Below, in pieces: positions 52,015-57,951 of a DNA stretch of 64,000 nucleotides. Both the position numbers and the translations under genes were made by a program. Source of the stretch: Clostridia bacterium (GTDB lineage: Bacteria > Bacillota > Clostridia > Christensenellales > Aristaeellaceae). How positions within the stretch are numbered: position 1 is the stretch's first letter; every line of letters starts with the position of its first letter. Under the pieces are notes generated by a model. The model ran no database searches. It was not told the origin of the DNA and saw nothing but the letters and a program-made list of their open reading frames with translations. The stretch covers positions 25,577 through 89,576 of the forward strand of contig JAFZPV010000043.1 of the NCBI GenBank assembly GCA_017552535.1. The letters are read 5' to 3'.

Positions 52015-52043
52015 TTGACAACTGTAGTCTCGGGTGCTATAAT
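52015..52043 (+). promoter_or_regulatory. Consensus promoter of the BlaI-M56 operon
   Basis: TTGACA, 17 bases, TATAAT, 39 bases before the blaI-like start codon. Two BlaI-type operator cores flank or overlap it. Confidence 0.85.
52017..52026 (+). promoter_or_regulatory. BlaI-type operator half-site pair within the promoter
   Basis: GACAACTGTA matches the TACA-NN-TGTA core recognised by BlaI/MecI with one mismatch; it overlaps the -35 and spacer. Confidence 0.55.
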
Positions 52044-52054
52044 GCCCTTGCAGA

Positions 52055-52066
52055 CTACAATTGTAG
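52055..52066 (+). promoter_or_regulatory. BlaI-type operator downstream of the promoter
   Basis: CTACAATTGTAG is a perfect 12-base dyad containing the TACA-NN-TGTA core, located 12 bases past the -10 and just before the ribosome binding site (AAAGGAGG). Confidence 0.75.
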
Positions 52067-52082
52067 CAAAGGAGGCGGCGCC

Positions 52083-52466
52083 ATGTCGGACGAATCCGCG
52101 CGCAGGATCTCGGACGCAGAGCTGGAGGTCATGAAGGTGCTGTGGGAGGCGGGGGAGGCCCTGCCGGTCACGGCGATCCGCGCCCGGTTAAGCCGCAGCC
52201 GGGGCTGGGAGGCTACCACGGTAAAAACGCTGGTGACGAGGCTGTGCAAAAAAGGCGCCCTGACGCAGGAAAAAAAGGGCGTGTTCTACTACCAGCCGCT
52301 GATCACCCGGGCGGAATACGATGCGTGGGCGACGAAAGACCTGATCAGCCGCCTGTACGGCGGCAGTGCCAGGGCGCTCGTTTCCGCGCTGGTCACCTCG
52401 GACGGCCTTACAAAAGAGGACATCGAGGAGCTTAGGCGCATGCTGGACGGAGGAAACAAAGAATGA
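52083..52466 (+). CDS. blaI: BlaI/MecI-family transcriptional repressor
   Basis: A 127-residue winged-helix repressor. The ISDAELEVMKVLWEAGE opening is the classic BlaI start, followed by the recognition segment (WEATTVKTLVTRLCKKGAL) and the dimerisation helices at the C-terminus. In known systems the partner M56 protease triggers cleavage of such a repressor and so induces the operon. Self-repression is supported by two operator-like sites at its own promoter. Its stop codon overlaps the start of the M56 gene by four bases (ATGA). The symbol indicates the family; a link to beta-lactam response is not implied. Confidence 0.92.
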   Translation: MSDESARRISDAELEVMKVLWEAGEALPVTAIRARLSRSRGWEATTVKTLVTRLCKKGALTQEKKGVFYYQPLITRAEYDAWATKDLISRLYGGSARALVSALVTSDGLTKEDIEELRRMLDGGNKE

Positions 52467-55093
52467 AAACGCTCATGTGGCTTACGCTGGGCGGCAGCGC
52501 GCTTTCGCTCGTATTGCTTTTCACCAGAAAGCTCCTGGGCAAGCGCCTGCCGGCTGCGGTGTATTACTACGCCTGGCTGCTGGTGCTGATCCGCTTCTGC
52601 CTGCCCGTGCCGGGCTTCATTCCGGAGACGGGCGTAAAGGCGGCTGTGCCTCAGACGATATACGACGCCCGGCCTTCAGCGTATACGGCTGAAACGGAAC
52701 CGGTTTTGCCCCTGGGCTTCCGGGAGGTCGAGACGGTGCCTGAGGTCCATTTGCCCAAGGCCGCGGAAAGCAGCGCGGATGAAGCGCCTGCATCCGCCGG
52801 GGCGCGTTTCTCCGGAGCGGAGGCGGCGGTTCTCGTGATCTGGGCGGCGGGCAGCATCGGCCTTGCAGCCTGGCGGATCTGGGCGTACCTGGGATTCAGG
52901 CGGAAACTTCGTAAGGGGCTGCGCGGGCCGAAAGCGGACGTGACGGAGATATACAGCCGCATTCCCGGAAGAAAGCCGAAGCTGTATGAAAGCGAAACCG
53001 TCCCGGGCCCGCTCACCCTGGGCGTGCTTTCGCCCGTGATCGTTCTGCCTCATCTGGAAGCCGGAAAGGCGGATCTAAAGCAGATCCTTGCGCACGAGCT
53101 CGTGCATTACCGGCGGATGGACGCGCTGTACAAGCTGATCGCCATGCTGGCGCTCTCCACTCAGTGGTTCAATCCTATCGCGTATATCGCGCTGAAGGAG
53201 ATCGGCTTCGCCTGCGAACTGAGCTGCGACGCCTTGCTGCTCAGGCGCATGAACGGCAGACAGAAGCGTGCTTACGGCGATATCCTGCTGCGTACCGCGG
53301 AAAACATGCTGCCCGGTGCGGCGGCGCCGTTTTACTCCCCGAAACGTACACTCAAAAACAGACTGGAGCGTATTATGGACCATAAAGAGAAGCGAAACCG
53401 CGTCGCGGCGGCGTTTCTGCTGCCGATCCTGGCGCTTGCGTTCCTGGCCGCGGGGCCGGCTGCGAGACAGGCGGGAGCTGCGCCTGATATGCGCACCGTA
53501 CGCGTTGCGACTGTCGACGAGCTGCTGGCCGCCATCGCCCCGGATACGGTGATAGAGCTGGCTCCCGGTGACTATGACCTGAGCGCCGCCTCGGATTACG
53601 GAAATGAGACGGAGGGCGGCTGGTATTCCTGGCTGAGGGCCATCGACTGGAACGAAGGGCAGGCGGTACTCGCGTGGGCGGAGCTGCAGCTGAGGAATGT
53701 AAACAATCTTACGATCCGCGCTTCGGGCGCAGGGGAGACCCGCATCCTGGCCGTGCCGCGGTTTGCAAACGTGCTGTACCTGGAAAACTGCCGTAACGTG
53801 ACCCTCGAAGGGCTTTTGATCGGCCATACGCAGATGCCCGGAGAGTGCAGCGGCGGCGTGGTGCGCCTGATCGCCTGCGAAGACGTCGCGATCAATGCCT
53901 GCGGGCTGTTTGGCTGCGGCACCATCGGCGTACAGGCGCTGGACTGCGCCCGCGTGGCGATAACGGATTCCAGGATATACGAGTGCAGCGTCGCAGCGGT
54001 CGACACCTTCTCCTGCCGCGACGTAAGCGTCAGCGGCTGCGAGATCGATTCCATCCAGGCTTCCGGCGTGCCGGCTGCCGCCCTGTTCTCCGCGCAGCAG
54101 GGGGACGGCTTCACGGTGTACAACTGCCGCATCCGCGACAACTACGCCGTGCACCTGTGCCGGATGGAAAGGATCACCAACGTCATGTTCCTTTCCAACC
54201 GTGTGGACATGAACATTTTTTCCGGCCCGGCGTTTCTGTGCACCGTATACCCGGCCCGGGTGGCGGGCTGCGCCTTTGACGGCAACGCGTCCGGTGAGGG
54301 CTGGTTCAGCGGGGACACCGCGTCCCCGATCGGGCTGAGCGGAGCGAAACTGGACGAATCGCGGCTGGAAGGCATGAGCTACGAGGACATCCCGCCCGAA
54401 ATGGCTTTGCAGGCGATCCGGGATGCGTACGCCGCTTCGGATGGCACAGAAGAGCTCCCTGCCGGCGGAGAGATACACGTTAACGACATCGAAGGCCTGA
54501 TCAGGGCTATCGGCCCTGAGCGCACCGTGGTGCTCGCGGACGGCGAATACGATGTTTCGAAGGCAAAAGCGCCGCTCAAAACAGATTGGTGCAGCCTCGG
54601 CGCGGACGGCCTCGTGATCCGCGACGCTGAGGGGCTCACCCTCAGAAGCGAGTCGGGCGCCCCGCTGACCGTAAGCATCTTTTCTTCCGCCGGAACGGAC
54701 GTGATGCGCTTCGAATCCTGTGCGGGGCTGAATCTGATCGGTCTGTGCTTCGGAAAAGAGAACACAGGCGGGGAAGGCACCGCGCTCAGCTTTGAGCAGA
54801 GCTACGAAATCGAATTGCTCGACTGCCTCGTGAGGAACGTGAAAAGCGGCATACGCATAAACCTGTGCGCCACCATCCGCTTAAGCAGGCTGGAATGGAG
54901 TTCCTGCTCCGGTACGGCGTTCGAGGCGCAGTATACCGACGGCATCAGCTTTGTAAACTGTCTCGCCCGCGATACCGCATCTCCGGCCATACGCTTTTCA
55001 GGCGCTGCGGACAAGACCTGGAACGGCGAGGCGTTCACGGGGGACGGAACGTTCGACATAGGCCCGGACGGCAGGCTTCGGGAAGTTAAATAA
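52463..55093 (+). CDS. BlaR1-like M56 metalloprotease with two extracellular beta-helix domains
   Basis: An 876-residue membrane protein. Residues 1-330 are the BlaR1/MecR1 M56 module: helices near 3-20, 32-50 and 118-145, zinc motif HELVH (His211, Glu212, His215) with third ligand Glu252 in ELSCD, and a last helix near 314-332. Instead of the C-terminal penicillin-binding domain there are two repeats of a right-handed beta-helix type: 345-640 and 670-876. Each starts with a similar unit (TVDELLAAIAPDTVIELAPGDYDLS and NDIEGLIRAIGPERTVVLADGEYDVS). Many short Cys/Asn-rich turns follow, as in NosD- and pectate-lyase-like folds. The outer domains probably sense a glycan or surface polymer; no catalytic pectate-lyase residues are recognised. 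Coupled to the BlaI-type gene. Confidence 0.9.
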   Translation: MKTLMWLTLGGSALSLVLLFTRKLLGKRLPAAVYYYAWLLVLIRFCLPVPGFIPETGVKAAVPQTIYDARPSAYTAETEPVLPLGFREVETVPEVHLPKAAESSADEAPASAGARFSGAEAAVLVIWAAGSIGLAAWRIWAYLGFRRKLRKGLRGPKADVTEIYSRIPGRKPKLYESETVPGPLTLGVLSPVIVLPHLEAGKADLKQILAHELVHYRRMDALYKLIAMLALSTQWFNPIAYIALKEIGFACELSCDALLLRRMNGRQKRAYGDILLRTAENMLPGAAAPFYSPKRTLKNRLERIMDHKEKRNRVAAAFLLPILALAFLAAGPAARQAGAAPDMRTVRVATVDELLAAIAPDTVIELAPGDYDLSAASDYGNETEGGWYSWLRAIDWNEGQAVLAWAELQLRNVNNLTIRASGAGETRILAVPRFANVLYLENCRNVTLEGLLIGHTQMPGECSGGVVRLIACEDVAINACGLFGCGTIGVQALDCARVAITDSRIYECSVAAVDTFSCRDVSVSGCEIDSIQASGVPAAALFSAQQGDGFTVYNCRIRDNYAVHLCRMERITNVMFLSNRVDMNIFSGPAFLCTVYPARVAGCAFDGNASGEGWFSGDTASPIGLSGAKLDESRLEGMSYEDIPPEMALQAIRDAYAASDGTEELPAGGEIHVNDIEGLIRAIGPERTVVLADGEYDVSKAKAPLKTDWCSLGADGLVIRDAEGLTLRSESGAPLTVSIFSSAGTDVMRFESCAGLNLIGLCFGKENTGGEGTALSFEQSYEIELLDCLVRNVKSGIRINLCATIRLSRLEWSSCSGTAFEAQYTDGISFVNCLARDTASPAIRFSGAADKTWNGEAFTGDGTFDIGPDGRLREVK

Positions 55094-56166: not shown

Positions 56167-57951
56167 ATGATCCGAAAACTTGTAAAACAGATGCTCGCCG
56201 CGCAGGTGCTTTCCGCCCTCACAGTGTCTGTATGCCTGCTGATCGACAGCATCATGATCGGCCAGTTTCAGGGCGTCACGTCCATCGCGGCGTACGGGCT
56301 TGCCAATCCGCTGCTTCTGATCATCGGAGCCGTGGGCAGCATGTTGTCCGCCGGCGCGCAGGTGGTGTGCAGCCGATCACTGGGCAGGGGCTCTCAGGAA
56401 GAAACGAACATCGGCTTTTCTTCCGCCCTGGCGGTGGGCACCTGTTTTTCTGCCGTATTCGTGATCGCGGTCGCCCTTCTGCTCAGTCCTCTCGCCCGGG
56501 CTCTGGGCGCCGGCAAAGACGCGAAGCTCCTGAGCGATACGAAGGACTACATTTCCGGATTCATCATCGGCGTGCCGGCCACGATGGCTTCACTGATCCT
56601 CGTTCCGTTCCTGCAGATGGCGGGCAAAAGCGGCCTGCTGGTGGCGGCGGTGCTCAGCATGACGGTCACGGACGTGGCCTTCGACCTGCTCAGCGTGCTG
56701 GTGTTCGACGGCGGCATGTTCGGCATGGGCCTGGCTTCGTCCCTCAGCTACTATGCCGCCATGCTGGTGGGCGGGGGATACCTGCTGTCGAAAAAATGCG
56801 TGTTCCGCTTTTCTGTGCGGCGCGTGCGCCTGGAAAAGATCCGCGATATGCTCCTGGGCGGCGTGCCTACCGTATTCAACATGGCGTCGTCGGTGGTGCT
56901 GGTGTACCTGATGAACAAGATCCTGCTTTCTGCCGGCGGCAGCGCCGCGGTGGCGGCTTTTGCCGTGATTACTTCCATCGGCAACGCAAGCAACTGCGTA
57001 AGCACGGGCCTGCGCGGCGTTTCGCTCACCATGTGCGGCATCCTGTTCGGCGAAGAAGACCGGACGGGCCTGAAAGAGCTGGTGCGCCTGCTTGCGCGGT
57101 ACGGCCTGATGCTGGGCAGGGGCGCCATGGTCCTGCTGCTGGTGATCGCTCCGTGGGCCGTAAAGCTGTTCATCCCCGAGGCGGGCGACAGCCGGACGTT
57201 TGCCGTATGGGGCTTACGTCTGTATTCGCTGGGGCTGATCCCCTGCTGCCTGAACAGTGCTTTGAAAAACGGATACCAGGGCGTTGAAAAAGCCCGCATG
57301 ACGGAGATGATCTCCGTCGTGCAAAACGCGATTTTGCCGGTCCTGGCGGGATACCTGCTAAGCCTCGCGGGCATGAAGGCGGTATGGCTGTACAATTTTG
57401 CCGGCGAGGCGGGCGCGCTGGCGCTGATCCTTCTGTATCTGCAAAGGAAAGGCTGCCTTTCCTTCCGGGAAGCGGAAAGCGTACTGTTGCTCCCGCCTTC
57501 CTTCGGCGTGCCGCCTGAAGACAGGATGGAGGCCGATATCAAGAACCTGGACGACGTGGTCAAAGCGTCCCGCGGAGCGCACGGTTTCTGCATCGCCCAC
57601 AGCTGCGGCGGCCGGCTGGCGAATCATCTGTCGCTGTGCGTCGAAGAGATGGGTTCAAACGTGATCGAGCACGGCTTTGCACCCAAAGGGCAGAACCATC
57701 TGTCCATCCGCCTGCAGTACAGAAACGGCAAATACACCATCCGCTTCCGGGACGACTGCGGCGCCTTCGACCCCGTGCACTATGTGACGGGCGAGGAAAG
57801 CGGGCACAAGGTGGGCATACGCCTGGCCATGCACGTGGCGGAGGAAGCGCGCTACACCTACTCCATGAACCTGAACAACCTTACATTGGTGCTCAGCGAA
57901 CACGAAGCCGGGAGCGAGGCCCCGGACGCCTTTGCCGGGCAGGAAGGCTGA
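56167..57951 (+). CDS. MATE-family transporter fused to an RsbW-like ATPase domain
   Basis: A 594-residue protein. Residues 1-435 are a MATE-type exporter with twelve predicted helices (Na+- or H+-driven drug or metabolite export). Residues 455-594 are a GHKL/HATPase domain like the anti-sigma kinase RsbW: the N-box is CVEEMGSNVIEHGF with Glu494 and Asn498, the G1 box RDDCGAFDP (Asp529-Gly532), and the G2 region GHKVGIRLAMHVA. The linker is short. Ordinary MATE proteins have no ATP-binding domain, so the extra part is likely a regulatory kinase or sensor. AGGAAAACC precedes the ATG; it is 49 bases past the DMT gene. Confidence 0.88.
   Translation: MIRKLVKQMLAAQVLSALTVSVCLLIDSIMIGQFQGVTSIAAYGLANPLLLIIGAVGSMLSAGAQVVCSRSLGRGSQEETNIGFSSALAVGTCFSAVFVIAVALLLSPLARALGAGKDAKLLSDTKDYISGFIIGVPATMASLILVPFLQMAGKSGLLVAAVLSMTVTDVAFDLLSVLVFDGGMFGMGLASSLSYYAAMLVGGGYLLSKKCVFRFSVRRVRLEKIRDMLLGGVPTVFNMASSVVLVYLMNKILLSAGGSAAVAAFAVITSIGNASNCVSTGLRGVSLTMCGILFGEEDRTGLKELVRLLARYGLMLGRGAMVLLLVIAPWAVKLFIPEAGDSRTFAVWGLRLYSLGLIPCCLNSALKNGYQGVEKARMTEMISVVQNAILPVLAGYLLSLAGMKAVWLYNFAGEAGALALILLYLQRKGCLSFREAESVLLLPPSFGVPPEDRMEADIKNLDDVVKASRGAHGFCIAHSCGGRLANHLSLCVEEMGSNVIEHGFAPKGQNHLSIRLQYRNGKYTIRFRDDCGAFDPVHYVTGEESGHKVGIRLAMHVAEEARYTYSMNLNNLTLVLSEHEAGSEAPDAFAGQEG

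Follow-up and report, generated by a model that had tools for sequence, protein, structure and literature searches.

A repressor-receptor operon with a beta-helix ectodomain

We carried out a computational analysis of a 64,000-nucleotide stretch of DNA (henceforth the window) from a Clostridia bacterium (GenBank assembly GCA_017552535.1, contig JAFZPV010000043.1, positions 25,577 to 89,576), focusing on an operon in which a BlaI/MecI-type repressor gene (blaI) precedes a gene for a receptor that joins an M56 protease module to two beta-helices (Table 1). The blaI stop codon and the receptor ATG share 4 bp (ATGA), and the coupling of receptor and repressor read earlier from the sequence (hereafter the preliminary description) thus stands. 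We found that residues 3-302 of the receptor match Pfam Peptidase_M56 (E-value 9.8e-38; 130.4 bits against a cut-off of 31; profile positions 2-294 of 296), while the C-terminal part matches the generic Pfam Beta_helix model (E-value 2e-12). An AlphaFold2 model of residues 341-876 shows two beta-helices with a mean predicted local distance difference test (pLDDT) score of 91, which agrees with the suggestion that a double beta-helix replaces the penicillin sensor. The host genome (a 2.39-Mb assembly, 76.7% complete) contains three M56 genes: that of the window receptor, a paralogue that also has two beta-helices (C20, locus L034) and a gene without a beta-helix (C8, locus L045).

Table 1. Features of the receptor operon, in positions of the window.
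Feature	Position	Strand	Basis
Sigma-A-type promoter: TTGACA 52015-52020, 17-bp spacer, TATAAT 52038-52043	52015..52043	+	read directly
Operator O1, GACAACTGTAGTC, over the -35 box	52017..52029		dyad
Operator O2, GACTACAATTGTAGC, right after the -10 box	52053..52067		dyad
BlaI/MecI-type repressor, 127 aa	52083..52466	+	Penicillinase_R
Receptor gene, 876 aa: M56 protease module and double beta-helix ectodomain	52463..55093	+
M56 module, residues 1-339, including membrane helices	52463..53479	+
Beta-helix 1, approximately residues 342-639; R433, H455, C462, C485, C508	53486..54379	+	predicted strands, alignment
Beta-helix 2, approximately residues 671-876, without the R-H-C-C-C set	54473..55090	+	predicted strands, alignment; residues 671-838 match beta-helix profile

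Protease module and repressor

BlaR1 and MecR1 are known as antibiotic sensors. Passages of PMC9834060 name the key residues of BlaR1 as HExxH, Glu242, Asp210, Asp246, Tyr261, Arg294 and the P1' residue Phe284. The window receptor has the zinc-site residues HELVH (211-215) and E252 as well as the acidic residue D256, and alignment to BlaR1 8exp (receptor residues 173-318; E-value 1.3e-5) places Y271, F290 and R300 at Tyr261, Phe284 and Arg294, respectively; the module is therefore complete, as had been proposed. These positions are strongly conserved among the relatives described below: H211, E212, H215, D220, E252, D256 and Y271 are kept in 45 of 45 family rows, R300 in 46 of 46 and F290 in 45 of 46. 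By contrast with these matches, the receptor misses the cut-off of the NCBIfam blaR1_generic model (98.5 against 400 bits), with the match stopping at residue 316. We also looked for a hidden penicillin-binding sensor and ruled it out, as all 79 ectodomain rows matched Beta_helix, 55 matched NosD and one GH28, with nothing else at an E-value of 0.001. The receptor thus belongs to the M56 family and probably operates like BlaR1, but by the family test it is not a beta-lactam receptor.

The repressor is a clear Penicillinase_R protein (E-value 1.1e-31; 110 bits against a cut-off of 22.6), and its residues 3-122 align to MecI 1okr (E-value 6e-16). Its top NCBIfam match is CopY_TcrY, which stays under the cut-off (86 against 121.95 bits).

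Paired operators at a single promoter

The preliminary description had placed BlaI-type dyads at the operon's own promoter, and we found two, O1 on the -35 box and O2 just past the -10 box. The bla/mec operator consensus is TACA-NN-TGTA. We compared 44 promoters (those of 43 relatives and the window) and found O1 (TTGACA-NN-TGT) in 41; among these 41 upstream regions, the best -10 box lay at a spacer of 17 with at most two mismatches in 36. Strict O2 (CTACA-NN-TGTA) was present in 30 of the 44 promoters and both operators in 29, of which 23 had O1 and O2 centres 41 bp apart. As a control, both strands of all 80 loci (1,757,742 bases) contained TTGACA-NN-TGTA 42 times and CTACA-NN-TGTA 36 times. 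No dyad was detected within 300 bp upstream of any of the 34 open reading frames (ORFs) classed as free beta-helix genes, a set that includes a fragment of locus L117.

The C20 paralogue belongs to a second operon of blaI and an M56 double beta-helix gene (L034:5041-8251) with an operator type of its own, and it retains an H-C type site in both helices. Operators of this operon and of its genus kin are TTGACA-NN-TGTCA and CAGATGACGCGCGTCATCTG, each or near variants; given this difference, the two circuits look insulated from one another.

A family of receptors in uncultured Clostridia

A scan of named genomes confirmed 146 relatives, of which 80 loci were retained. The scan patterns included LFGCGT and VDE, meaning that C485 and residues 351-353 were partly selected for, whereas R433, H455, C462 and C508 lay outside the patterns. 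Their titles give uncultured Clostridia in all but two cases, which read just 'bacterium', and 27 refer to a ruminant. The M56-beta-helix fusion was found at 46 of the 80 loci. In 44 of these the contig extends far enough, and there the gene immediately upstream is always blaI (42 called by rule, L117 by position and L046 by a contig starting inside the blaI frame); the contigs of L067 and L108 break off within the receptor gene and fall outside the 44. The L117 receptor consists of two ORFs in different frames; it was classed as a fusion from its position and excluded from alignments. The other 34 loci, together with one place in L064, hold beta-helix ORFs without an M56 match, although three or four of these 35 are cut at one contig end (L096, L113, L116 and L120; the 5' end in L113 and L120), which makes their class less sure.

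With few exceptions, complete proteins of the 80-locus set have two helices. Many relatives (L048-L107, receptor C-termini) extend 140-417 residues past the second; the C-terminal extensions of receptors L048, L058, L100 and L107 and of the free form L064 gave no match that reached a Pfam cut-off. Elsewhere in Clostridia, relatives often have one helix and varied partner regions (judged by eye). A class-wide survey of 391 genomes detected the beta-helix in 30 (E-value 1e-10), and of the 16 surveyed places that were fetched, one (G216) was a receptor operon. An H-C-C-C beta-helix occurs in surface or secreted proteins of other Clostridia (L205-L220), with partners that include, by eye, RCC1-like and S-layer-like regions. 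We found no report of a beta-helix M56 receptor in literature titles and abstract openings, in a search without most subscription journals.

A conserved residue set in the beta-helix

We aligned 205 domain rows and dropped 7 that were gapped at key places, leaving 198 domains. The full R-H-C-C-C set (R433, H455, C462, C485 and C508 in the window receptor) is present in 190 of these; by residue, H455, C462 and C508 are each found in 196, C485 in 195, R433 in 191 and W390 in 189. In the set of proteins with other architectures, H455 and C462 were kept in 16 of 16, C485 in 14 of 16, C508 in 15 of 18 and R433 in 10 of 15. In helix 2 of the window receptor the set has been lost, as it has in helix 2 of its two closest relatives (L046 and L047). 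In L211 the last two cysteines were lost together and R, H and the first C remain. From the register of the repeats, R433, H455, C485 and C508 would sit at one place on successive coils, with C462 in an intervening loop.

The fold of helix 1 is a right-handed beta-helix as found in polysaccharide enzymes (i.e., alginate lyase 6kfn, PL6 lyases, AlgE epimerases and GH110). However, there is no clear sequence kinship to these enzymes, profile matches being weak and partial (best E-value 1.2e-4, over 67 profile positions), and the window ectodomain differs from them in its attachment to a protease and in its R-H-C-C-C set.

Free and tethered beta-helix proteins

A tree of 79 ectodomains (77 of them labelled) implies 12 changes between fused and free forms, at least 7 of which are forced by well-supported branches, the tree being the product of a short search and having some long branches. 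All 31 full free forms tested begin with a hydrophobic N-terminal stretch, 13 have a lipobox, and several of their N-termini resemble the receptors' last membrane helix. In turn, a cysteine closes that helix in 41 of 46 receptor rows (the window protein lacks it), and the same 46 rows comprise 21 strict lipobox fits, 9 loose ones and 16 without any. In most receptors the final membrane helix thus looks, from its residues, like a lipoprotein signal peptide, which suggests that the receptor may have arisen when an M56 module was placed before a surface protein bearing its own signal peptide. At two loci (L072:2028-7635 and L111:5875-10663) free beta-helix genes adjoin blaI-M56 pairs whose M56 proteins have no beta-helix match; the L111 ectodomain carries Big_14.

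Search for a regulon

A search for further operators, as proposed in the preliminary description, returned by consensus essentially only operons of the same kind, and a wider control of other genes gained no support from it. Specifically, exact O1 was found at 38 sites, in 35 of 38 genomes, against 5 for a backward control. Thirty of these sites were re-read and all 30 had a blaI start within 200 bp; among them, G128 and G130 contribute second operons, and the G119 blaI stands at the end of its contig. One site (G101) precedes a free beta-helix gene, contrary to the 34 free ORFs without a dyad, and the remaining seven match operons with a fitting O1 that had already been read in their genomes. 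Eight loose O2 places away from blaI operons (L221-L228) fall within long open frames. In the host genome, ACTACA-NN-TGTAGT with at most two mismatches occurs at 7 places (on both strands each), one being the window's O2, and the backward control gave 63 on each strand; O1 with at most one mismatch occurs at 11 places in seven genomes of the genus (3 exact, 8 mismatched), against 35 for the control. By consensus, the regulon thus consists of the module itself, and the circuit appears to be largely self-directed.

There is a clostridial precedent for such an arrangement. Passages of PMC8457756 describe a small self-regulating regulon for BlaI_1845 of Clostridium thermocellum, and BlaI_1845 and BlaI_0696 resemble the window repressor in being clostridial BlaI proteins with very small self-regulated regulons and in having ordered sites for four protomers, similar to the paired sites found here. 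They differ in their dyad (GTCTAT/GACTAT), in belonging to what the paper presents as beta-lactam systems and, as far as these passages go, in having no beta-helix. The precedent lowers the novelty of a tiny paired-site regulon; what is new is the sensor, its R-H-C-C-C residues and the switching between fused and free forms.

A probable BlaR1-type receptor with another sensor

We favour, at a probability of roughly 0.7, the explanation that the receptor signals by proteolysis as BlaR1 does but through another kind of sensor, in a circuit directed mainly at itself: the cell probably senses something extracellular and then cuts its own repressor. At rest, as the operators suggest, the repressor would occupy O1 and O2 and close the single promoter. 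An extracellular ligand would bind the ectodomain, most likely at the strongly conserved R-H-C-C-C site of beta-helix 1, and the signal would pass via the membrane helices to the cytoplasm-facing zinc protease. Because the catalytic residues are conserved, we infer that this protease cleaves the repressor as BlaR1 does. Induction would then raise mainly the operon's own products, giving more repressor and more surface beta-helix. The ligand is probably a glycan, a cell-wall or other extracellular component, which is the weakest step of the explanation; the polysaccharide proposed in the preliminary description fits the polysaccharide-active nature of the nearest folds, but fold likeness alone shows no function. 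Overall, the observation read from the sequence was confirmed and its first interpretation partly supported.

The nearest parallels are the BlaR1-BlaI and MecR1-MecI systems of Staphylococcus aureus and Bacillus licheniformis, which share with the window operon the M56 catalytic set, an extracellular C-terminal sensor, a coupled repressor and dyad operators at the own promoter. There, however, the sensor is a penicillin-binding domain rather than a double beta-helix. Several observations weigh against the favoured explanation. EL1, the gate of BlaR1, is modelled with low confidence in the receptor, and its sequence has little in common across the family apart from a proline (P63, 43 of 45 rows; P83, 34 of 38). 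The MecI cleavage bond is N101-F102 according to passages of PMC3305447, whereas the window repressor shows A-L where the alignment places it, so that cleavage at this bond is an assumption. Of the 44 promoters, 15 lack at least one strict operator (several by one or two bases), and L107 and L123 match neither pattern. Across the 38 genomes loose O2 shows no enrichment, with 41 places and 105 for its backward control, and is informative only by its place. Unlike the bla and mec systems, moreover, the family has no target gene recurring beside the operon among ORFs within the flanks of the 80 loci, where the next most common neighbour cluster after blaI occurs at 12 of 80 with scattered distances and strands.

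One alternative is that the receptor is its own effector, its last membrane helix doubling as a signal peptide, so that the ectodomain, once freed or lipidated, would work outside the cell as a binder or an enzyme, and induction would make more of it. We regard this as possible though rather doubtful. It would account for exact O1 sites that lead to 30 blaI genes, seven known operons and one free beta-helix gene, for the cysteine and lipobox fits at the end of the last helix, for the similar N-termini of several free forms and for the repeated fused/free changes on the tree; passages of PMC9834060 also report that signal peptidase cuts BlaR1 itself after the last helix. On the other hand, the cysteine is missing from the window protein and 16 of 46 rows have no lipobox of either type. 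Nor does a regulon confined to its own operon call for a special function, since small self-regulating BlaI regulons are known (passages of PMC8457756). Sites off the consensus would also escape an exact search; in the genus search 8 of the 11 places were inexact (control 35). Somewhat more speculatively, the receptor might be a polyprotein in which an M56 module stands before a secreted or lipidated beta-helix protein whose own signal peptide now serves as the last membrane helix. Cleavage by signal peptidase may then yield sensor, protease and self-supplied surface effector from one chain, and the R-H-C-C-C beta-helix could be a new ligand-binding or catalytic module that clostridial receptors have in common with free surface proteins.

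A metal or redox sensor, in which H455 and the cysteines coordinate a metal or engage in a disulfide under a CopY-like repressor, appears unlikely. Near-invariance of these four residues, kept also in other protein contexts, and the sub-threshold CopY_TcrY match argue for it, but R433 and W390 are nearly as conserved and would equally suit a glycan site, a single metal would hardly reach residues that, by their register, would lie one per coil, and the NosD matches reflect a generic beta-helix model. We consider it more improbable still that the ectodomain is an active carbohydrate enzyme (a lyase, epimerase or hydrolase) in which catalysis rather than binding gives the signal; the fold of helix 1 is that of such enzymes, yet the weak, partial profile matches given above add little to a likeness that does not establish function.

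Under the BlaR1-type explanation, the protease and repressor of the antibiotic sensors have been wired to an unrelated sensor, behind a clean operator, in many uncultured gut Clostridia. The receptor family would then offer a defined route to a new ligand, and the R-H-C-C-C set marks a beta-helix module that occurs well beyond receptors.

A further gene of the window

Downstream, at positions 56167-57951 of the window (+ strand), lies a gene for a MATE transporter of 594 aa whose chain also carries a HATPase_c_2 domain at its C-terminus, to our knowledge an uncommon pairing.
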